A stretch of DNA of 64,000 bases from Crocinitomix algicola (GTDB lineage Bacteria; Bacteroidota; Bacteroidia; Flavobacteriales_D; Crocinitomicaceae): NCBI RefSeq assembly GCF_001661595.2, contig NZ_LYPF02000007.1:62001-126000 (forward strand). Reading direction: 5' to 3'. The position numbers and the translations under genes are program-made. Position 1 is the stretch's first letter, and each line of letters begins with the position of its first letter. The notes beneath the pieces were generated by a model, which saw nothing but the letters and a program-made list of their open reading frames with translations, searched no databases and was not told the DNA's origin. Positions 7,554 through 59,623 of the stretch are shown here, piece after piece.

Positions 7554-9224
7554 ATGAAGGAGGAAAATAAATACATGGACGAAAGCTTTAAAAGGTTAGA
7601 GAAGGAGTTTCAAGTTTCCTACCATAAGTCGTTTTGGGATGAAGCTAAAATTGCGTTGGAGAATGATGCTTTGGACAATGCTTTTCGTAGTGCAGCAACT
7701 TCTTCTACTAAAATAACAGTTCCTAACTGGGACAATCAGGGACTTGAAGAAGCTTTTATGGATGAGGCTTTTAGGGACGCTGTTCAAGCTTCTGAAACGA
7801 AATATCAAGCAAGTTTTTGGAATGATTTTGAAAATCAGCGTGAGGAACTTGAAGAAAAAGATGCTTTCCAAACAGCTGCGCAGCAAATTAAAGCAACTTA
7901 CAATCCAATATTTTGGGAAAACGCCAATACGGAACTTGAAAAAGAAGGATTACATTACGAATATCAATCCGCATATTGGAATGAGGCAAAAGAATTGTTA
8001 GACAAGTCGGATAGACGAAGATTTATTGGACGTTGGTCGGCGGTGGCAATTGCCCTCTTATTGATTTCCTTAGGCGGGTTCAATTTTGACGGAGTTGAAT
8101 CAAACCAAAGCCATGTTAGGTATGAGCGCGAGGCTAGTTTAGGTCAAAGATTAAAATCAATAAACGATAATTTTTTCAATATTGCTGAAAATCATCAGCC
8201 AACAAGAAATCAAAAATTTGATCTTGTAGGTTCTGTTAAAACGCCAATTAATAAAGGTATTGAATTACAGGATGAAGCGAACAATAACGAGATTTCAGCC
8301 GATGTTTTTGATCAAAATAAGCAAGCAGTGTTAAGTCATGGAGAAACGAATATAGTAGCTGAAAACCACTATCAAGAAGAGCAATTAAAATTTGCGAAAG
8401 AGGCTTCTTTAAGGACACATGATAAAAGAACACTCAATAATAAACGCGATTCGAGGTCTCGTATTTCGCATCTTCAACAAAATGAACGAATTCAAAATTA
8501 TGAGTACAGCTTGCTGACACCTATAGAACTAAAAAATAGGCCTAAATTAAACGTCCAAAATTTATCCGTTAATGCAGGATTCGGTTTTGGTAGAGGTTAC
8601 GGTATAAATCAAAATTTTAATCTTCCCAGGGCTTATTTGGGAGTAGATTATTCTCGGAAAGGTTCGAATAAATTTAATCGGTTTGAGTTTGGAGGAGGCA
8701 TAGGGGTAAAAGGGTTAAAAGAGGATGGAATTGTTCATGAAAAAAGAACGGTGCGATACATGGAAAACACGAATGCCTTGACAAGTTGGAGAAAACTGAA
8801 GATTAATGATTTAATTTATGGGAATTTAAATTTATTCCTCTCTTTTAATATTCGTTCAAAACATTGGACAACAGTGGGTGTAGGTCTTGATAAACTGTTA
8901 GCTGTAAGGTCAAATATGGCTTATTTCATCAATGATACCAAAACCAAAAATAAGGTGGGGGAAAATGCATTAGCATCTGATGATTTGACTGATATTAAAA
9001 CAGTAAACAATAACTGGGGAGTTCAAGAAGGTATTAGAAGAAATGACTTGAATTTCACGCTTGGATATGAGTATCGATTAAACTACAAACTCAGCCTTCA
9101 AACAAAATTTAACTTCGGCATATTTGACCGAACAGATGATGATTTTTACAACCAAGACCAAACTTTTAATAATGAAATGAATGCCACAGTTGGTATTCGA
9201 TATAGATTTTTTACGAAAATATGA
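7554..9224 (+). CDS. Membrane protein with N-terminal Trp repeats and C-terminal beta-barrel-like domain, candidate anti-sigma factor
   Basis: 556 residues. The N-terminal 150 residues hold about five degenerate units of roughly 31 residues, each ending in a Tyr-x3-Phe/Tyr-Trp motif. Trp residues fall at 28, 59, 89, 121 and 142, with AF(R/Q)xA motifs at 43, 72 and 104. One membrane segment follows (about 161-176, 'WSAVAIALLLISLGGF'). Then comes a low-complexity linker, and from about 333 onward Gly/aromatic beta-strands like an outer-membrane beta-barrel ('VNAGFGFGRGYGINQNF', ending in 'VGIRYRFFTKI'). No zinc-binding anti-sigma motif is seen. Position directly after the sigma gene suggests a regulator spanning from cytoplasm to envelope. 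Confidence 0.7.
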   Translation: MKEENKYMDESFKRLEKEFQVSYHKSFWDEAKIALENDALDNAFRSAATSSTKITVPNWDNQGLEEAFMDEAFRDAVQASETKYQASFWNDFENQREELEEKDAFQTAAQQIKATYNPIFWENANTELEKEGLHYEYQSAYWNEAKELLDKSDRRRFIGRWSAVAIALLLISLGGFNFDGVESNQSHVRYEREASLGQRLKSINDNFFNIAENHQPTRNQKFDLVGSVKTPINKGIELQDEANNNEISADVFDQNKQAVLSHGETNIVAENHYQEEQLKFAKEASLRTHDKRTLNNKRDSRSRISHLQQNERIQNYEYSLLTPIELKNRPKLNVQNLSVNAGFGFGRGYGINQNFNLPRAYLGVDYSRKGSNKFNRFEFGGGIGVKGLKEDGIVHEKRTVRYMENTNALTSWRKLKINDLIYGNLNLFLSFNIRSKHWTTVGVGLDKLLAVRSNMAYFINDTKTKNKVGENALASDDLTDIKTVNNNWGVQEGIRRNDLNFTLGYEYRLNYKLSLQTKFNFGIFDRTDDDFYNQDQTFNNEMNATVGIRYRFFTKI

Positions 9225-10325: not shown

Positions 10326-10331
10326 CAGGGT

Positions 10332-10686
10332 AAATAATCTTGTCGCTCTGTGTTAGTATACAGAGAGGAAAGTCCGGGCAACAAAGAGTATCATACTTCT
10401 TAACGGGAAGGATTTCGGTTAACGAAATACAGATAGTGCCACAGAAAATAAACTACCTCGTTTTACGGGGAAAAGGTGAAAAGGTGGGGTAAGAGCTCAC
10501 CGCTCTCAAAGTGATTTGATGAGGCAAGGTAAACCTTATGAGTTGAAACATCATGTAAACCAAGGCTTGAAGCTTACTCGGCTAATCTTGGAGGGTAGAT
10601 GGATTGAGTCTCAAAGTGATTTGAGATCTAGATAAATGACAAGAATTTGGTTCGCTGAATACAGAACCCGGCTTATACATTTACAA
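10332..10686 (+). ncRNA. rnpB: RNase P RNA (class A)
   Basis: Catalytic RNA that trims the 5' leader of tRNA precursors. The 5' half has the conserved 'GAGGAAAGTCCGGGC' element (10364-10378), the first strand of the P4 core. The 3' half ends with the universal 'ACAGAACCCGGCTTAT' (10661-10676). In between are the 'GTGCCACAGAAA' and 'GGTAAACC' core elements and a duplicated 'TCTCAAAGTGATTTGA' motif. A -7 box lies just upstream and a UUCG-loop terminator just downstream. The exact ends are approximate. Confidence 0.95.
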
Positions 10687-10690
10687 TTTT

Positions 10691-10724
10691 AAAAAGGTAC
10701 TTTATTCGTAAAGTGCCTTTTTGT
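10691..10724 (+). terminator. Terminator of rnpB
   Basis: AAAAAGGTACTTTA, a TTCG tetraloop and TAAAGTGCCTTTTT form a 14-bp stem with one T-G wobble and a T run. Confidence 0.92.
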
Positions 10725-12967: not shown

Positions 12968-12975
12968 TATCTTTG
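12968..12975 (+). promoter_or_regulatory. -7 box of the cobalamin operon
   Basis: TATCTTTG matches TAnnTTTG and lies just upstream of the riboswitch, giving a predicted start near 12980. Confidence 0.6.
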
Positions 12976-12984
12976 CGCCAAGTT

Positions 12985-13200
12985 TTGGTTTTCGTTTCGG
13001 CGAAATTAAAAGGGAATCAAGTGCTGTCCTTTGACAAATTCTTGAACTGTTCCCGCAGCTGTAAGCTTCAAAACTTTTGAGTAATACCACTGTCTTTTTT
13101 TGATGGGAAGGTTCAAAAGCAAGGAGTAAGTCAGAAGACCTGCCAGAATTTATAAACAGCACAGTATGTGCAAGCTTTCGGGATAAAAGCAAAGTTTAGG
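12985..13200 (+). promoter_or_regulatory. Cobalamin (B12) riboswitch
   Basis: The conserved core elements are present in order. They are 'AAGGGAATCAAGTG' (13010-13023), 'TTCCCGCAGCTGTAA' (13050-13064), the 'CCACTG ... TGGGAAGG' stem (13088-13111), and the B12 box 'AGTCAGAAGACCTGCC' (13129-13144). An inverted repeat just after it (GGTCT/AGACC, 13203-13215) may belong to the expression platform. The riboswitch lowers expression when cobalamin is bound, so the four downstream genes are predicted to be induced by B12 scarcity. A short minus-strand open frame across this region is not a gene. Confidence 0.95.
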
Positions 13201-13288
13201 AGGTCTGTTCTAGACCCCTTACACCTTGTTGGTATTCCTTTTTATTAATTCGCTCTAATGATTTAACACGAGCACAAAATTTAAAAGG

Positions 13289-14824
13289 ATGAAAAAAACA
13301 TTACTTTTTGGAATTTCATTATTCCTTACCGTATTGGGGAAAGCCCAATTCACACAAAACGACTTGCTTTATTATGTTGGCGAAGGTCCTGATACAGCAG
13401 TTCTGGTTATTGATTTTTTAGATGAAACAGATCCTTATGCATGGGGGTATTTGTTTGATGCAACAGAATCGGTAACTGCAGAAGCAATGTTGGCAGATAT
13501 TTCTGATGATGAGGCTTTTTTGACAGTTGAACTTGCAGGAGGTTTTTTAAATAATATCTACTATAACCAGAAAGAAGGCATTGCTGGAGATCCTAATTAT
13601 TGGGGCACGTGGAGTAAAGATGAAGAAGGTGCCTGGTATACAAATGGCGGTGTAAGTGAAGTACTTGAAAATGGAGAATGGTTTGGTTGTTCTTATACCG
13701 ACTTTGATCCGGCATTGGAACCTAATAATCCAATTGCGGCGTACGCTTCAAAATGGTTTAGTAAAGATGAAATCGTATATACGGTTGGAGAAGGAGATGA
13801 TACTGCTATTTTTGTAATTGATTTTGTGACAGCTGGTTATAGTGAAGCAGTTTCTTATGCTTGGGCTTATGCTTTTGATGGCGTAACCACTGGAGGAGAA
13901 ATTTTAGCTGACTTAGCTGCTGATGACATCAACCTTGATGTTGATGCGGGCGCTTTTCTAAACGATATTATTTATAATCAATTAGAAGGAATAGGTGGAG
14001 ATCCTCATTATTGGGGAACTTGGAGTGGGACCAATTTGTCTGATTGGGAAATGAATGCAGGTTTATCAACTGAAGTAAATGACGGTGATTGGTTTGGTTG
14101 TTCTTATGCAGAATGGGCTCCACGTAGACCATGGACACCGATACCTTCCATTTCTGCTGATACTTTAATTGCTTCTGATCTTGACTTTGTAATTGGTGAA
14201 GGTGAAAATCAAGTGGTAATTGTTATCGACTTTAATGAGCGTGTAGCAGGTGGTTCTTACGCTTATGGATATAATTTTGATACAGAAACAATCTTGGCGA
14301 GTGAAGTACTTGAGGCGCTACACGAAGCTGATTATGGTTTGTCCATTGACCTGACAGGTGGATTTTTAAATAGTATTTCAAGCAGTGCTTATGGTGAAGA
14401 AGGTATTGGAGGCTCTCCATATTATTGGAGCACATGGAATGCTACAAATGCCGGTGGTTGGTACTTAAATTCAGGAATAGGAGAAGAGTTGTCAGATGAC
14501 GACTGGTTTGGTTGCTCATACACATCTTGGTCTCCGGCAACACCACCAAGTGTTCCTGTGCCAGGTTTATATTTATTAAGTGTCGAACAGGAGGATGAAA
14601 TAATAGGAGCTTATCCAAATCCAACAGCTGGAACGCTAACTGTACCGGCGAATGATTATGATTATCTAAATGTCTATGATGCTCAGGGAAGAGTGGTTTT
14701 TTCAACTCAAGAAACTACAAATAATGTAATAATCGATTTAAATGAGTTTGAAAATGGTGTTTATATCCTAGAGGCAACAATTGGAAATCAAACTTCTCGA
14801 GAAAAAATTATTTTAAATAAATAA
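13289..14824 (+). CDS. T9SS-exported protein with three tandem domains, first gene of the B12 operon
   Basis: 511 residues. Signal peptide about 1-19. Three tandem repeats of about 115-135 residues (near 25-145, 156-283 and 290-425) share a 'GEG' start, an aromatic 'YAW(A/G)Y.FD' strand, a 'GGFLN.I' or 'GAFLNDI' segment, 'YWGTW/YWSTW' and a final 'WFGCSY'. A type A T9SS sorting domain follows (about 435-511, 'AYPNPTAGTLTVP' to 'REKIILNK'). I infer that the repeats resemble the DUF4430 beta-domain of transcobalamin and intrinsic factor. That and the riboswitch suggest surface cobalamin binding; it has not been verified. The TonB receptor gene follows after 15 bases. Confidence 0.8.
   Translation: MKKTLLFGISLFLTVLGKAQFTQNDLLYYVGEGPDTAVLVIDFLDETDPYAWGYLFDATESVTAEAMLADISDDEAFLTVELAGGFLNNIYYNQKEGIAGDPNYWGTWSKDEEGAWYTNGGVSEVLENGEWFGCSYTDFDPALEPNNPIAAYASKWFSKDEIVYTVGEGDDTAIFVIDFVTAGYSEAVSYAWAYAFDGVTTGGEILADLAADDINLDVDAGAFLNDIIYNQLEGIGGDPHYWGTWSGTNLSDWEMNAGLSTEVNDGDWFGCSYAEWAPRRPWTPIPSISADTLIASDLDFVIGEGENQVVIVIDFNERVAGGSYAYGYNFDTETILASEVLEALHEADYGLSIDLTGGFLNSISSSAYGEEGIGGSPYYWSTWNATNAGGWYLNSGIGEELSDDDWFGCSYTSWSPATPPSVPVPGLYLLSVEQEDEIIGAYPNPTAGTLTVPANDYDYLNVYDAQGRVVFSTQETTNNVIIDLNEFENGVYILEATIGNQTSREKIILNK
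13361..14550 (+). repeat. Coding region of three tandem protein repeats
   Basis: The three units are diverged at DNA level and recognised from the protein motifs GEG, YWGTW and WFGCSY, each repeated at an interval of about 130-140 codons. Confidence 0.85.
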
Positions 14825-14839
14825 GTTGAATCATTTCGA

Positions 14840-16831
14840 ATGAACAAGTGTATTTATACCATTTTCATTTTATGCTTGCCGTTCGGAACAAAGTTAATGG
14901 GGCAGGATACAACGAGACAGTTGGATCCTGTTCCCGTTTTTGCAAAAAATGATTCAATTACAAGATTGACCAATATTCAGGCAAGTATCCCACATTATAT
15001 CTTAAATGAAGAAAAAATAGATGCCTTGGGTGCCCTTGATGCTGGAGATGCTTTAAAAGTAGTGCCAGGTGCATTAGTGAAAGATTATGGCGGAATAGGT
15101 GGGATTAAAACAATTGCTTACCGCGGATTGGGGGCTGGACACACAAATGTTCAAGTAGATGGGCAACAAATACCTAATCTCCAAAGTGGTGTGGTTAATC
15201 TTTCTAATTTTGAACTCTTTGGGGTTGAACAGGTTGACTTTTCTACTGGGCAAACAATGAGTGATCAGGCAGTAGCTTCGTCCTTTGTTCAGGCAAATTC
15301 CATTGCTATTCAATCTGTTTTAAATAGTACTCCCAATAAAAGGCGTCTCGGTATTTATTTTAATTCAAACACAATTCGTGCTTTCGAAAAAGGGCTATAT
15401 TATCAGGAAAAATTAGGGAGAAATTTTTTTATAGGTGGTCAAGGAATGATGCGTTTCGGTGAAGGGACTTATTATTTTAAACACCCCGAAATAAAAAAAG
15501 ATACGTTATTAAAAAGAGAGAATACGGCCTTAAAGGATTATCGAATTCGTGGAGTCTTTGGTTATGAAACCAAGCTGATGAAAATATTGGTTGGTGGATA
15601 TTATCGTAATAGTGAACAAGAGTTGCCAGGAGCAGCTGTATTGTTTAATCCTTCTAACGATCAAAACTTATGGAATGTTGATTGGCGCACAAATACCGAA
15701 ATCAATGTAAGAAAGGGAAAATGGGCAGGAAAAGTACATGGGAACTATCAATCAAATTATACTCGCTATTATGATCCTTTTTACTTAAATCTAGATGGAT
15801 TTATTGATGCGCGGTATCAACAAGAAAATGCAACTACTGGCCTATTGTTGTCTAGAAGGTTTCGATTTCCCAATGAACGAATTTTTGTAGCAACCGATTT
15901 TACGAACGCTAAACTTTTTGGAAATGGGATTACCAATTCACCAAAACGTTTGCAGATGGTAAATGTGATTGGAGGTTCGACTTTGTTTAATAAACTCAAG
16001 TTAGACGGTAATCTTACACAACAGATAATAAGGGATGATTTTTTAGTTGACGATCAACTGGAGGAAAGATCCTTTTTACGATTTTCGCCTTTTGTTTCTT
16101 TGGCCTACAGGCCGTTTTCGAAGCAAAGATTAAGGTTAAGAATGTTTTATAAAAATACATTCCGCATGCCAACTTTTAATGATCTTTATTACAATTTTAT
16201 AGGGAACATAGATTTAAAACCGGAGGACGCCCAGTTGTTTAATATTGGGATTACTTATTCAAAAGCGTTCAATAATTGGGGTGTTGAATCGAGTATAGAC
16301 GGTTATTTTAACGCGGTGAAAAATAAGATTGTTGCCATTCCTACAAAGGATTTGTTTAATTGGAGTATGCAAAATATTGGAGCTGCTGAAATTAAAGGAA
16401 TTGATTTGAATATGCTGGTGTATTATGAATCGAATAACTGGAAGTTAAACATCTCAACAAATCATAATTTTAATTCTTCCGTTGATATAACTAACGAAAA
16501 TTCGATAACCTATTTAGATCAAATTCCTTACACTCCTTTCTATACATCATCTTCCAGTACATCAGTCGATTATAAATCGTATAGTTTAAGTGTAAATGTT
16601 TTATACACTGGATATCGGTATTCCTTGAATGAAAATATTTATGCCAATTATCTTGAGCCGTTTACTGCAATGAATATTGGTGTTGCTAAAGGATTTACTT
16701 TTGAAAAATCCAAGCTGAAAGCCAGTCTAAGGGTCATGAATCTTTTTAATGTCAACTACCAAGTTGTAAGAAGTTTTCCAATGCCGGGAAGATATTGGCA
16801 ATTTAAAATCCATTACAAATTAAATCAATGA
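14840..16831 (+). CDS. btuB: TonB-dependent receptor, BtuB-type cobalamin transporter
   Basis: 663 residues. Signal peptide about 1-21. The plug domain (about 45-160) has 'ALKVVPGALVKDYGGIGGIK', 'AYRGLGAGHTNVQVDGQ' and 'FSTGQT'. The rest is a 22-strand beta-barrel, with the barrel signature 'NTFRMPTFNDLYYNFIGN' and 'LKPEDAQLFNIGI' and a C-terminal aromatic strand. No carboxypeptidase-like N-terminal extension is present, in contrast to many SusC-type receptors and consistent with BtuB. Substrate assignment to B12 comes from the riboswitch and from the BtuG-like gene that overlaps its 3' end by four bases. Confidence 0.88.
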   Translation: MNKCIYTIFILCLPFGTKLMGQDTTRQLDPVPVFAKNDSITRLTNIQASIPHYILNEEKIDALGALDAGDALKVVPGALVKDYGGIGGIKTIAYRGLGAGHTNVQVDGQQIPNLQSGVVNLSNFELFGVEQVDFSTGQTMSDQAVASSFVQANSIAIQSVLNSTPNKRRLGIYFNSNTIRAFEKGLYYQEKLGRNFFIGGQGMMRFGEGTYYFKHPEIKKDTLLKRENTALKDYRIRGVFGYETKLMKILVGGYYRNSEQELPGAAVLFNPSNDQNLWNVDWRTNTEINVRKGKWAGKVHGNYQSNYTRYYDPFYLNLDGFIDARYQQENATTGLLLSRRFRFPNERIFVATDFTNAKLFGNGITNSPKRLQMVNVIGGSTLFNKLKLDGNLTQQIIRDDFLVDDQLEERSFLRFSPFVSLAYRPFSKQRLRLRMFYKNTFRMPTFNDLYYNFIGNIDLKPEDAQLFNIGITYSKAFNNWGVESSIDGYFNAVKNKIVAIPTKDLFNWSMQNIGAAEIKGIDLNMLVYYESNNWKLNISTNHNFNSSVDITNENSITYLDQIPYTPFYTSSSSTSVDYKSYSLSVNVLYTGYRYSLNENIYANYLEPFTAMNIGVAKGFTFEKSKLKASLRVMNLFNVNYQVVRSFPMPGRYWQFKIHYKLNQ

Positions 16832-17877
16832 AAAAATTAATTATCATTCTAATAACTATTGGATTGGCTGCGTGTAAAAAAGATAAACCAATCGAACCTG
16901 TTGCACTTGGCACTTATGAAAAGGGTATTCTTGTTTTAAACGAAGGGCTTTTTGAACAAAATAATTCGTCTTTAACATTTTATGATTATAATGCGTCTTT
17001 TCAGCAAGTTTTTAAAGTTGAAAATGACCGAGGATTAGGGGATACTGCAAACGATTTTAAAGGAGTTGCGTTTGGTAATAAAAATTATATCATCATTGCG
17101 GTTGATGTTTCTAGTCAAATTGAAATCATTGATCGATTTACTTTAAAGTCTGTTAAGCAAATTCCACAATTTGAAGGTATAAATGCAAGGGAGCCGAGAC
17201 GTGTTGTTTTTGCAGCGAATAAGGCTTTTATATGCAATTTTGACGGAACTGTTGTAGTTGTTAACATGGCATCTCTAAATCAAGAAGCGCTGATAGAGGT
17301 TGGAGCTAATCCAGATGGTATGGTCGTTGTCGATGATCGTTTATATGTATCCAATTCTGGAGGTTTAAATTATCCGGTGTATGATTCAACCATTACAGTT
17401 ATAGATATTCACAATAATCTTGTTCTTGAGACTTTTGAAACACGCATAAATTCATCTCAAATGGTGGTTGATCAAGAGGATGATATTTACCTTACTTCAA
17501 CAGGGAATTATGATGATGTTGCTCCCGCATTTTTAAGAATTAACACCGAATTGAATGAAGTAGAGGCAGTAATGGATAAAAAAGTGTCATCTATGCAAAT
17601 GGTGGGAGATTGGCTTTATTTTTATAATGGGGAATCGAAGGCAATAGAACGTTACCATACCATTACAGAAACCTTCGAGAATAATCCAATAATTGATGTG
17701 AGTGGGTATGAAACATTTTATGGTATGGAAATAAATCCCGTTAATCAAGAGATTGTATGTCTAGACGCAAACGGTTATGTTGTTTCATCTACAGTGAGAG
17801 TTTATGATTTCGGCGGAAATTTTTTATATGAATTTAATGGTGGTTTAAATGCTACCGGTGTACTCTTTAATAATTAA
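16828..17877 (+). CDS. BtuG-like beta-propeller lipoprotein (YncE/DUF5074 type)
   Basis: 349 residues. Lipoprotein signal with 'LAAC' (Cys16) and a following KKDK. The rest shows repeated beta-propeller blades ('RVVFAANKAFICNFDGTVVV', 'GANPDGMVVVDDRLYVSNSG', 'MVVDQEDDIYLTSTGNYDD') of the YncE/DUF5074 type. BtuG of Bacteroides is a surface-exposed propeller lipoprotein that binds cobalamin tightly and caps BtuB. The four-base overlap with the receptor gene and the riboswitch upstream support the same role here. The function is inferred from family and context. Confidence 0.85.
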   Translation: MKKLIIILITIGLAACKKDKPIEPVALGTYEKGILVLNEGLFEQNNSSLTFYDYNASFQQVFKVENDRGLGDTANDFKGVAFGNKNYIIIAVDVSSQIEIIDRFTLKSVKQIPQFEGINAREPRRVVFAANKAFICNFDGTVVVVNMASLNQEALIEVGANPDGMVVVDDRLYVSNSGGLNYPVYDSTITVIDIHNNLVLETFETRINSSQMVVDQEDDIYLTSTGNYDDVAPAFLRINTELNEVEAVMDKKVSSMQMVGDWLYFYNGESKAIERYHTITETFENNPIIDVSGYETFYGMEINPVNQEIVCLDANGYVVSSTVRVYDFGGNFLYEFNGGLNATGVLFNN

Positions 17878-17879
17878 TT

Positions 17880-18860
17880 ATGAGAATTATAATAACAAGT
17901 TTTGTATTAATGTCAACCTTTCAATTGTATAGTCAATTTGCTCCGCCAGTTGGTGAAGAGGGGTCTACGGCTATAAGTAAAGATTCTTCTGCAATTATTG
18001 CTTGGGCAACTGAGGTAATCACTTTTGAAAGAGGGTTAGAGGATATCACCAACCCTGAAGGACCATTGGCGAGTTTTGGAGAAGCAGAGGCAGCCTTGTT
18101 CGAAGCTGAAGGGACGAGTGTTAATGTTGTAAGCCTTGGAGATGCAGGGCGCATTACACTGGGTTTTGATTATAGTATTAAAAATCAAGAGGGTCCTGAT
18201 TTTGCCGTTTTTGAAAATAGCTTTTCGGATGATTACCTTGAATTTGCACATGTTGAAGTAAGTTCTGATGGTGAAAGATTTGTTCGCCTGCCATCGATTT
18301 GTAATATTAATTCGGAAGAGCAGTTAGGAACCTATGAAACATGTGACGGGAGTTTGGTGCATAATTTAGCAGGTAAATACCGACAAGGATTTGGTACCCC
18401 TTTCGATTTAGAGGATATAAAAGACTCAATTGGGATAGATATTATGGATGTGGGTTTTGTCAGAATAGTGGATGTTGTAGGAAGTATTAATCCTGATTAT
18501 GGTAGTTTTGACAGTGAAGGGAATATTATTAATGATCCTTTTAAAACTGATTTTGAGAGTGGAGGATTTGATTTAGATGCAGTTGGGGTAATTCATAATA
18601 ATGATCCTTCAGTAAGCATCAAAGAAGAAGTAGCTATTACAGCATCATTTTACCCTAATCCATCGAATGGTGTTATTTATATGAAATCGAAAAATGTGGA
18701 AAAGGTAGTAGTCCTTAATTTAGAAGGAAAGGAAGTGTTTAGGGCGAATAATGCGGATGTTATTCAACTTCCAAATAATCTAAATAACGGAATCTATATC
18801 GTTTGTTTCGAATTCACTACCGGTCAATTAAAGCAAGAAAAATTACATTTAAATCGATAG
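17880..18860 (+). CDS. T9SS-exported protein of the B12 operon
   Basis: 326 residues. Signal peptide about 1-19. The main domain (about 20-240) has conserved-looking segments 'GRITLGFDYSIKNQEGPDFA', 'VFENSFSDDYLEFAHVEVSS' and 'FDLDAVGVIHNND', which look like a beta-sandwich. A type A T9SS sorting domain follows (about 250-326, 'ASFYPNPSNGVIYM' to 'KQEKLHLNR'). It starts two bases after the BtuG-like gene and is the last gene of the riboswitch operon. I do not know its function; an accessory role at the cell surface in B12 capture is inferred from position only. Confidence 0.75.
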   Translation: MRIIITSFVLMSTFQLYSQFAPPVGEEGSTAISKDSSAIIAWATEVITFERGLEDITNPEGPLASFGEAEAALFEAEGTSVNVVSLGDAGRITLGFDYSIKNQEGPDFAVFENSFSDDYLEFAHVEVSSDGERFVRLPSICNINSEEQLGTYETCDGSLVHNLAGKYRQGFGTPFDLEDIKDSIGIDIMDVGFVRIVDVVGSINPDYGSFDSEGNIINDPFKTDFESGGFDLDAVGVIHNNDPSVSIKEEVAITASFYPNPSNGVIYMKSKNVEKVVVLNLEGKEVFRANNADVIQLPNNLNNGIYIVCFEFTTGQLKQEKLHLNR

Positions 18861-58192: not shown

Positions 58193-59623
58193 ATGAAAAT
58201 TAAATTATTTAGTGTGTCAATCGTCCTTTTACCATTGACACTCAGTGCTCAATCGTTTATTGAAAAAACGGTAGAGAATTATCGTTCGGTCATTTATGGA
58301 GAAGTGATTTGGTTAGATAAGGACAATGATGGACGCTCTGAAATGTTCTCAACTGGGGCAGCAGATGATTATGATCACAGTGCTCAATTTTTTAATAATG
58401 TTGGCACCAATGATTTAGAAGAAGACTATTTTTTAGAATCAATTGGGTTTTCGCTCTCGTCAGCAACCACTGCTGATATGAATAATGACGGTTATGATGA
58501 TTTTCTAGTCTCTGGCTATAACGGAGAGTCGAATCAAACAAGATTATTTTTAAATAATGGAGCAGGAAGTTTTACCAATGAGTTATTGGAAATCACGGGC
58601 GTTACGAATGGGAAAATAAGAACTGCAGACTTTAATGGGGATGATTTAATTGATGTCATTATCACTGGAGTTAGTCCAGAAAGTACTTATATATCCGAAT
58701 TGTATTTCCAAAATGAAGCAGGGGAATTTGAACTACAAGATCAAGTTTTAATGCCAAATTATTTTGGAGATGTCACAATTTTCGATGCGGATGAAGACGG
58801 GAGTCCAGATATTTTATTGACGGGGTTTGATTTATCATATACACCTAATACCAAACTTTTTATAAATGACGGAGAAGGAAACTTTGAAGAGAAGGTGGAA
58901 TCAGGTTTACCCCGAGTATATTTCTCAGGAACTAGTGCTGGTGATTATGATAATGACGGAGATTTAGACGTATTGATATCAGGGATGACAAATAGCTATA
59001 CGCCTGCTAGCAATATATACATCAATGACGGAGAAGGTAATTTTGTAGTGGATGAAACGACTTCTTTTATAGAGATGTACTTTGGTACAGCTGATTTTGT
59101 TGATGTAAATAATGACGATAAATTAGATGTTTTCTTTTCTGGATCAACTAGCGACGGCGTGCCGCATACCGTACTTTATTCATTGACTGAAGAAGGATAT
59201 GTTTTAGATGAGTCTTTCTCTGAGTTGACTGTTGATGTTAACATTTCGAGTGTCGCTTGGAAAGATTATGATAACGACGGAGATTTAGATGTTTTCATTA
59301 CCGGTTTTACAAGTGAAGGCGATCGAGCTTCTGGCTTTTATGTCAATCAAATGAATAGCCCAACCTACGCAAATTTTGATCAAGAAGAGAAACCGCAATT
59401 AACGGTTTTCCCTAATCCAAATAATGGGACTTTTAGTCTTAATTTCGAAAATGCAGAAGCAAGAATAATCTCCATTAGAAATTTACAAGGTCAAATCGTT
59501 TATGAATTAAATGTTCATGCTTCAATTGTTCAATTGAATTTGACAAACCTGCCTTCAGGAGTTTATATGCTTACAGATAAATCAAAAAATAGCCAACAAT
59601 CAACTTTAATTACAATTGAATAG
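58193..59623 (+). CDS. T9SS type A protein with seven FG-GAP repeats
   Basis: 476 residues. Signal peptide about 1-19. Seven FG-GAP repeats carry Asp-rich calcium loops ('WLDKDNDGRSEMF', 'ADMNNDGYDDFLVSGY', 'ADFNGDDLIDVIITGV', 'DADEDGSPDILLTGF', 'DYDNDGDLDVLISGM', 'DVNNDDKLDVFFSGS', 'DYDNDGDLDVFITGF'), one per blade of a propeller. The type A sorting domain ('LTVFPNPNNGTFSLNF' to 'QSTLITIE') follows. A small relative of the preceding giant protein, 160 bases after it on the same strand. Confidence 0.9.
   Translation: MKIKLFSVSIVLLPLTLSAQSFIEKTVENYRSVIYGEVIWLDKDNDGRSEMFSTGAADDYDHSAQFFNNVGTNDLEEDYFLESIGFSLSSATTADMNNDGYDDFLVSGYNGESNQTRLFLNNGAGSFTNELLEITGVTNGKIRTADFNGDDLIDVIITGVSPESTYISELYFQNEAGEFELQDQVLMPNYFGDVTIFDADEDGSPDILLTGFDLSYTPNTKLFINDGEGNFEEKVESGLPRVYFSGTSAGDYDNDGDLDVLISGMTNSYTPASNIYINDGEGNFVVDETTSFIEMYFGTADFVDVNNDDKLDVFFSGSTSDGVPHTVLYSLTEEGYVLDESFSELTVDVNISSVAWKDYDNDGDLDVFITGFTSEGDRASGFYVNQMNSPTYANFDQEEKPQLTVFPNPNNGTFSLNFENAEARIISIRNLQGQIVYELNVHASIVQLNLTNLPSGVYMLTDKSKNSQQSTLITIE

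Follow-up and report, generated by a model that had tools for sequence, protein, structure and literature searches.

A riboswitch-linked operon of Crocinitomix algicola encodes three predicted transcobalamin-like domains beside putative B12 uptake proteins

We analyzed a 64,000-nucleotide (nt) stretch of DNA from Crocinitomix algicola (contig NZ_LYPF02000007.1, positions 62,001 to 126,000; hereafter the window), in which a cobalamin riboswitch precedes four genes, numbered here 1 to 4. Gene 1 encodes three tandem repeats that are predicted to fold like the beta-domain of the animal B12 carriers transcobalamin and intrinsic factor, followed by a sorting domain of the type IX secretion system (T9SS). 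Most likely, the operon holds transcobalamin-like, BtuG-like and BtuH-like proteins beside the receptor BtuB. We put the probability at about 0.8 that it is a riboswitch-controlled system for scavenging cobamides at the outer surface and consider it just as probable that the repeats of gene 1 bind B12.

Results and discussion

Three repeats in gene 1 with the predicted fold of the transcobalamin beta-domain

The product of gene 1 has a signal-like start, three repeats, a short linker and a T9SS tail (Table 1). A hidden Markov model (HMM) of the repeats, which was built with the window's own repeats included, found three copies in gene 1, each with E <1e-48 and with starts 408 nt (136 amino acids, aa) apart, and matched 34 further copies in 12 other loci. 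The tail matched both Por_Secre_tail (PF18962; E 7.2e-13, 49.1 bits vs a cut-off of 27) and TIGR04183 (E 9.4e-15, 54.4 bits vs a cut-off of 23). An initial annotation of this DNA had described three tandem domains of about 130 residues with a type A T9SS tail, and both parts of that description held. With such C-terminal domains above their cut-offs, the products of genes 1 and 4 would be type A cargo. The gene 1 product has a computed isoelectric point of 4.05 and a net charge of about -69 at pH 7.

AlphaFold modelled repeat 2 with a predicted local distance difference test (pLDDT) of 88.8 and a predicted template-modelling score (pTM) of 0.85. In this model, DSSP assigned strands at residues 16-24 and 33-41, a helix at 47-57, a hairpin at 61-65/69-74, and strands at 77-80, 88-92 and 113-117. 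The order matches that reported for the beta-domain of rat transcobalamin, a b1'/b2' hairpin, a1', a b3'/b4' hairpin and b6'/b8' (PMC11107200), with the strands at 61-65 and 69-74 corresponding to b3'/b4'. An extra beta-hairpin directly after the helix is reported to mark the transcobalamin-like clade of the SLBB beta-grasp superfamily (PMC1796856), and those same two strands place it in the model. Two glycines are strongly conserved in this clade, one following strand 2 and one preceding the third strand; an alignment (A3) of 37 repeats from the window and 12 loci of Crocinitomix, Crocinitomicaceae and other Flavobacteriales and Bacteroidota, one of them labelled Bacteroidales, has glycine in 18 of 37 rows and alanine in 12 at position 43, after strand 2. 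Three other positions are more uniform (G79, 36/37; G82, 30/37; G66, 29/37), the counterpart of the published later glycine being uncertain.

We searched the model against 350,542 PDB chains with Foldseek. The first rank was 3u7z, and ranks 2-16 were transcobalamin (14 rows) and intrinsic factor (one row), with intrinsic factor again at rank 20; E-values were 6e-3 to 6e-2 for the first 16 ranks and 9e-2 for rank 20, with probabilities of 0.89-1.00. Ranks 17-19 were chains of the staphylococcal protein SSL7. The repeat is 8-14% identical to the B12 carriers. VIA-align, with which 834 of the 838 top Foldseek chains were scored, gave Z 9.6-11.7 for 15 entries (intrinsic factor, haptocorrin, transcobalamin and 3u7z), with root-mean-square deviations (rmsd) of 1.9-2.8 A over 85-101 residues. 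For 3u7z these were 1.9 A over 85 residues, at 21% identity. The next fold, that of molybdopterin synthase and SAMP1, scored 6.8, leaving a gap of 2.8 Z units that is an in-run control against a generic beta-grasp match. CATH superfamily 2.170.130.30 is reported to hold 3u7z together with the animal carriers, in which a shared beta-hairpin surface coordinates cobalamin (PMC13385337). The likeness to the beta-domain of transcobalamin and intrinsic factor, proposed in the initial annotation by reading the repeat pattern, is therefore borne out by the predicted structure, in which the repeats do not come out as an unrelated domain. By these models the repeats very probably have the transcobalamin beta-domain fold.

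The likeness could instead reflect only the common ubiquitin-like beta-grasp, with no kinship to transcobalamin and a role unrelated to holding B12. The beta-grasp is a widespread superfold, sequence identity to the carriers is low, no sequence method that we used links the families, and SSL7 follows closely in the Foldseek ranking. We nevertheless consider this explanation very improbable: other beta-grasp proteins (MoaD, SAMP1, Urm1, Raf RBD) reached Z of at most 6.8, whereas all 15 transcobalamin-type entries reached at least 9.6, the clade-marking hairpin is present in the model, and the genes lie behind B12 riboswitches.

The conserved aromatic residues across the 37 repeats include F68, Y86, W87, W90, W98, W113, F114 and Y118. 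Several near-invariant ones are found in the counterparts of b3'-b7' and the b7'-b8' loop, which are reported to anchor the ligand of rat transcobalamin (PMC11107200); b1' and b2' show good conservation as well. The aromatics may mark a ligand site or a structural core alike.

Table 1. Coordinates of the riboswitch, the four genes and their parts in the window
Feature	Position	Strand	Evidence
Cobalamin riboswitch aptamer, RF00174	12969-13161	+	cmscan, 113.5 bits, E 1.1e-27
Terminator-like hairpin with U5 run, likely expression platform	13180-13243	+	RNA fold
Gene 1, three predicted transcobalamin-like beta-grasp domains and T9SS tail, 511 aa	13289-14824	+	
Likely signal peptide, gene 1	13289-13345	+	by eye from translation
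Repeat 1, gene 1	13346-13714	+	repeat HMM, E 2.5e-53
Repeat 2, gene 1 (AlphaFold model m2fcca9ef7baf)	13754-14125	+	repeat HMM
Repeat 3, gene 1	14162-14539	+	repeat HMM, E 3.5e-49
T9SS type A C-terminal sorting domain, gene 1	14612-14812	+	PF18962 (residues 442-508) and TIGR04183
Gene 2, BtuB-type TonB-dependent receptor, 663 aa	14840-16831	+	8blw_A; TonB_dep_Rec and Plug
Gene 3, BtuG-like propeller, 349 aa; lipobox-like LAAC by eye	16828-17877	+	8blw_B, 8ptf_A, DUF5074
Gene 4, predicted BtuH-like domain and T9SS tail, 326 aa	17880-18860	+	modelled part 17934-18629; tail 18651-18833

The riboswitch and the genes downstream of gene 1

The riboswitch match spans the full RF00174 model (1-189) and scores 113.5 bits, compared to a gathering score of 31.5; no second cobalamin riboswitch turned up in the 3.7 Mb genome. 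Folding of the RNA from 13150 to 13290 gave -32.3 kcal/mol (z -2.73), and none of 200 shuffles was as low. A long stem (13180-13238) is followed by UUUUUAUU, a run of U residues, and the hairpin and U run are likely the expression platform of the riboswitch, which would terminate transcription. Riboswitch, hairpin and four genes form a single transcription-unit-like block (12969-18860, + strand) with intergenic gaps of 15, -4 and 2 nt, in agreement with the earlier description of a clear cobalamin riboswitch before four tightly packed genes.

The best PDB relative of gene 2 was 8blw_A, BtuB1 of Bacteroides thetaiotaomicron (E 3.6e-89, residues 25-654), and its assignment as a BtuB-type receptor stands, although it scored 70.4 bits against the NCBIfam TonB-B12 equivalog, far under the cut-off of 599.7. 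Gene 3 adjoins gene 2, and its best relative was the BtuG1 chain of the same structure (8blw_B, E 3.1e-46), closely followed by 8ptf_A (E 6.2e-46); it also matched DUF5074 (E 8e-13). Its match and its place fit BtuG, a YncE-type propeller adjacent to BtuB, and the BtuG-like propeller that had been placed beside BtuB was thus recovered.

Gene 4 had been left undescribed in the initial annotation, and its BtuH-like fold is an addition. We modelled its domain from an alignment (A5) of 11 sequences, from which the partial first copy of one locus (L039) and a cut copy of another (L044) were excluded. The pLDDT was 76.9, with loops below 50 and a span of 47.6-76.9 over the five models. The top three Foldseek matches (E 1.3e-4 to 1.1e-3) were 8blw_B, which is BtuG1 fused to BtuH, and two chains of 7biz (BtuH2); BtuG1 is reported to carry a fused BtuH domain (PMC10404256). 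VIA-align placed gene 4 on the BtuH parts of these structures, at 19-21% identity, with Z 13.1 for 7biz_A (318-592; rmsd 3.1 A over 160 residues) and 11.5 for 8blw_B (392-660). The next family was PAPP-A (Z 10.0), followed by CBM32-type modules among others. The model thus indicates that gene 4 folds like the B12-binding C-terminal domain of BtuH, with a modest margin over PAPP-A. By sequence, no BtuH chain was matched, and the profile against the PDB gave only T9SS tails and chance matches. Gene 4 has no PKD match in Pfam and no lipobox by eye; it appears to be a single domain with a T9SS tail (PF18962, E 9.2e-7, 29.5 bits vs a cut-off of 27; TIGR04183, 30.8 bits vs a cut-off of 23). We also noted a likeness (29% over 108 aa, E 1.3e-5) between the C-terminal part of the gene 4 product and another part of the window (59258-59575, + strand), which is perhaps another T9SS tail.

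Cobalamin riboswitches accompany the homologues of gene 1

A protein search found a homologue of gene 1 in 13 of 149 genomes, and profile searches found matches in 14 of 399 genomes sampled from the order and in 9 of 395 sampled from the phylum, the window's own genome being included in each count. One match in the order sample (G245) was a fragment. One in the phylum sample (G452, locus L099; E 0.0067) was rejected: it fell in a 1565-aa glycosyltransferase-like frame, with no riboswitch in the 5.3 kb contig.

A cobalamin riboswitch lies directly upstream of all 16 genes for arrays or single domains that have upstream DNA present (the window, L026, the 12 loci L034-L045, L091 and L079). In the 14 of these that were measured, the closest in-frame ATG preceding the first repeat is 83-170 nt past the aptamer, with alternative ATGs in five. 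Among more distant relatives, all seven assessable loci (L092-L096, L098 and L100) hold a riboswitch; these include the fragment of G245 (L100), a 31-residue match with E 3.8e-5 about 2 kb from the riboswitch. Left out of the counts were a match at a contig end (L078), a locus whose contig ends 1.3 kb upstream (L097) and the false match in L099. Where the initial annotation had asked whether homologues occur mostly outside B12-riboswitch loci, the result was a cobalamin riboswitch in 23 of 23 assessable loci, directly upstream in 16 and in the same locus in 7.

Fusion proteins and the history of the repeats

In six genomes outside the order (G611, G615, G650, G670, G721 and G736; loci L092-L097), frames of 748-804 aa have about 58 residues in their N-terminal region that match the repeats (profile-profile E 3.5e-16 over about 58 residues). 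Pfam scans of two of these frames placed DUF5074, a family that gene 3 matches too, after the repeat-like part (E about 1e-120), with a T9SS tail behind it. A cobalamin riboswitch is present in five of the loci; the contig end interrupts the sixth (L097). Separate BtuB and BtuG-like genes are present in four of them (L092, L094, L095 and L096), some loci being cut. L095 was the one locus tested for BtuH, and there the gene that precedes the fusion was identified as such by sequence (8blw_B 393-661, E 1.5e-69; 7biz_A, E 2.2e-44). A stand-alone, lipoprotein-like copy was found in genome G635 (L098), where the first half of a 262-aa candidate matches the repeats.

We also observed that the riboswitch locus of this last genome (L098, 960-7158, + strand) has BtuB-like and BtuG-like genes and a 685-aa lipoprotein-like frame beside the 262-aa lipoprotein candidate, and that G670 carries a pair of B12-riboswitch loci, of which L091 encodes a T9SS-tailed protein of two repeats and L092 a fusion.

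Across the 12 three-repeat arrays (the window and 11 others), the first, second and third repeats each formed one group, with supports of 80/91, 85/83 and 96/89, and in 95, 100 and 98% of bootstrap trees, respectively, a single change accounted for each grouping. The grouping was judged without rows from outside three-repeat arrays; such rows (from L026 and L091) adjoin the first repeats with weak support. Because the three repeats group separately across the arrays, the triplication looks to predate these lineages, each unit having apparently been kept distinct.

A proposed route for B12 and the evidence for and against it

The genome has genes for B12-dependent enzymes, as seen from matches to the MetH activation domain (E 1.4e-124) and to methylmalonyl-CoA mutase (E 8.5e-239). 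CbiC had no match in this genome at E 1e-3, and half of the control genomes (7 of 14) had one. This one missing enzyme suggests that the bacterium must take up B12.

We propose the following route. When B12 is scarce, the riboswitch, as expected from its family, would permit expression of the four genes. The product of gene 1 would be exported by the type IX system and display three transcobalamin-like beta-grasp domains, each of which would most likely bind cobalamin by its lower (nucleotide) face, like the transcobalamin beta-domain. The captured B12 would then be handed, either alone or by way of the BtuH-like product of gene 4, to BtuG on BtuB and imported, presumably in that order. In transcobalamin, the upper-face ligand is reported to sit between cobalamin and the alpha-domain (PMC11107200), and because it lies towards the alpha-domain, the beta-domain should cover the lower face. 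A hydrophobic residue in the hairpin of the transcobalamin-like domain is reported to stack on the base (PMC1796856). BtuG and BtuJ reportedly leave the lower ligand exposed, and BtuH faces it (PMC12751083; for BtuG also PMC10404256). By this published geometry, a beta-grasp domain that holds the lower face would not obstruct the face bound by BtuG; such complementarity predicts a direct ternary hand-off.

Several observations weigh against B12 binding by these repeats, or against their kinship to transcobalamin. The Foldseek E-values are modest, the best being 6e-3 and none being 1e-3 or lower. Conservation is not centred on the hairpin, whose first strand varies as much as the helix does (mean entropy 1.99 in both). 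At the sequence level, DUF4430 (PF14478) matched none of 24 repeats in a scan up to E 10, in which the HMMER filters drop most matches above about 0.1. The HMMER profile of the repeats found no animal carrier in the PDB, its best match being a chance one to Kirola (E 0.21), and hhalign of the repeats against two Bacteroidota DUF4430 proteins gave E 0.092, a weak negative for a two-sequence profile. The animal carriers are reported to hold B12 between two domains, with sub-picomolar affinity when both are present and lower affinity when they are separated (PMC5599065), and we saw no toroid domain in the operon. A place in a B12 operon does not make an accessory protein a binder of the vitamin: BtuL and BtuK2 are reported to have bound no cobalamin (PMC12751083). 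In the fusion proteins, the second half of the N-terminal domain could not be aligned to the repeats beyond the level of shuffled columns (hhalign score 13.7; 60 column shuffles averaged 11.2 and reached 20.6), and the propeller of the one fusion tested is nearer to 9s6c (E 3.2e-15) than to BtuG.

Given the DUF4430 results, membership in that family was not supported at the sequence level. A Pfam scan of gene 1 likewise offered no sequence route to the fold of the repeats. Because no sequence method that we used finds kinship, the claim supported by the models is one of the same fold plus the clade-specific hairpin, and not of membership in Pfam DUF4430. Searching from the other side, phmmer of two DUF4430 proteins against the PDB found no transcobalamin, and tblastn of plasmids with one DUF4430 protein found no further members. 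We also considered kinship to DUF4465, which was unsupported: in Pfam, at E up to 1, none of genes 1-4 matched it.

DUF4430 itself is rare among the Bacteroidota genomes sampled, scoring above its cut-off in one of 395 (G580; L077, 6878-7231, + strand). This copy is 48% identical to one in a genome of the same family as the window (G156; L025, 4449-4826, - strand, 31.5 bits in Pfam), and its neighbours are unrelated by eye. The gene in L025 lies downstream of a cobalamin riboswitch (8704-8896, - strand), a gene that reads as metE-like and a protein with a T9SS-like tail.

A second alternative accepts the transcobalamin-like fold and gives it another partner in the same pathway, either BtuG, BtuB or the BtuH-like protein (as a scaffold for assembly) or an anchor in surface glycans. 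The ligands of SLBB domains are reported to be diverse, with polysaccharide suggested for some (PMC1796856); BtuL, from a B12 operon, is reported to affect vesicle release while binding no cobalamin (PMC12751083); and the three repeats have been kept distinct and are not interchangeable. The nearest solved structures, however, are B12 carriers, and several near-invariant aromatics fall in elements that match the ligand anchors of rat transcobalamin, although a role in the core would fit these too, and b1' and b2' are also well conserved. We regard this alternative as improbable and prefer B12 as the ligand of the repeats.

It is also conceivable that the transcobalamin-like domain and a propeller, here BtuG, make up a two-faced clamp on B12, the beta-grasp covering the lower face and the propeller the upper one, in the place of the alpha/alpha toroid of animal transcobalamin. 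In Crocinitomix, two separate proteins would each supply one half and dock for hand-off; in the distant relatives, a related domain and a propeller share one chain. We had taken the fusion propeller to be BtuG-type and dropped this assignment: up to E 1, the PDB gave no relatives of it except chains of 9s6c, titled 'quinoprotein amine dehydrogenase-like protein', and a separate BtuG-like gene is in the same locus. On these two grounds the fusion no longer counts as evidence for pairing with BtuG, and its middle part is, by sequence, a propeller-like domain of its own kind. Because the fused propeller is nearer to 9s6c than to BtuG, we lowered our estimate for the clamp from tentative to doubtful. 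If the clamp were real, animal transcobalamin and the bacterial system would share one half and differ by an exchange of the other, as two solutions on a common base.

Relation to known B12-binding systems

The repeats share with the beta-domain of transcobalamin, intrinsic factor and haptocorrin the order b1'-b2'-a1'-hairpin b3'/b4'-b5'-b6'-b8' (fold Z 10.2-11.7 over 92-101 residues). Unlike these carriers, which consist of an N-terminal alpha/alpha toroid and a C-terminal beta-grasp domain, gene 1 has no toroid, three tandem copies, a T9SS tail and no detectable sequence similarity, and its product is predicted to work at the bacterial surface rather than in a body fluid. The best Foldseek match, 3u7z (CATH 2.170.130.30), is RUMGNA_00854 of Ruminococcus gnavus, titled a putative metal-binding protein; it differs from gene 1 in being a single domain and in coming from another phylum.

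The surface BtuB-BtuG-BtuH system of Bacteroides has the riboswitch, BtuB, BtuG and BtuH-like parts in common with the operon. B. thetaiotaomicron has a lipoprotein BtuH with PKD domains, along with BtuJ, BtuK and BtuL, whereas the operon described here has a T9SS-tailed BtuH-like protein and a transcobalamin-like array. The domain IPR026444, which we take to be the T9SS sorting domain, is carried by 229 of 824 DUF4465/BtuJ proteins, which are described as extracellular B12 binders, as is proposed for gene 1. Their fold is reported to be an augmented beta-jelly-roll (PMC13398666), in contrast to the predicted beta-grasp of the gene 1 repeats; B12 binders of another fold with sorting tails are thus already on record. 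BtuK1 of B. thetaiotaomicron is also reported to bind cobalamin (PMC12751083).

Burroughs et al. (2007) described secreted bacterial transcobalamin-like SLBB proteins, including one beta-propeller fusion, as predicted scavengers of B12 or its precursors (PMC1796856). The clade members named in that paper are from low-GC Gram-positives, planctomycetes and euryarchaea, and not from Bacteroidota with BtuB/BtuG. Among the matches listed in our literature search, which covered titles and abstract openings and had most subscription papers and all bioRxiv preprints outside it, no transcobalamin-like domain was described in Bacteroidota or in a BtuB/BtuG operon. B12 scavenging by bacterial transcobalamin-like proteins had therefore already been predicted, and what appears new here is a tandem, T9SS-tailed candidate binder of this type beside BtuB-, BtuG- and BtuH-like proteins.

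Because a B12-sensing operon encodes three predicted copies of the carrier fold along with a B12 importer, the models suggest that animals and these bacteria have a B12-catching device in common. If so, the fold of the animal carriers also serves Bacteroidota as a surface-displayed tandem binder that works with BtuB and BtuG, and a further fold joins the B12 binders of the phylum, which comprise the propeller BtuG, the BtuH domain and the jelly-roll BtuJ. An unannotated T9SS-tailed family would gain a function. The finding would also bear on the origin of the animal transcobalamin beta-domain, for which Burroughs et al. proposed low-GC Gram-positives.

Gene order and position of the operon in relatives

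The order riboswitch-gene 1-btuB-btuG-gene 4 was found in 8 of 13 compared loci (L034, L036, L037, L038 and L040-L043), and one more (L035) agrees with it as far as the contig end. Another (L026) has genes 1, 2 and 3 in this order, with gene 4 absent from the 12.5 kb examined, and in the remaining three (L039, L044 and L045) gene 4 is closer to gene 1. The gene for RNase P RNA lies upstream of the operon in the window (10327-10691, + strand). Because it is found 2-6 kb upstream in the window and in four other loci (L034, L035, L042 and L043), the B12 operon seems to have a conserved chromosomal address.

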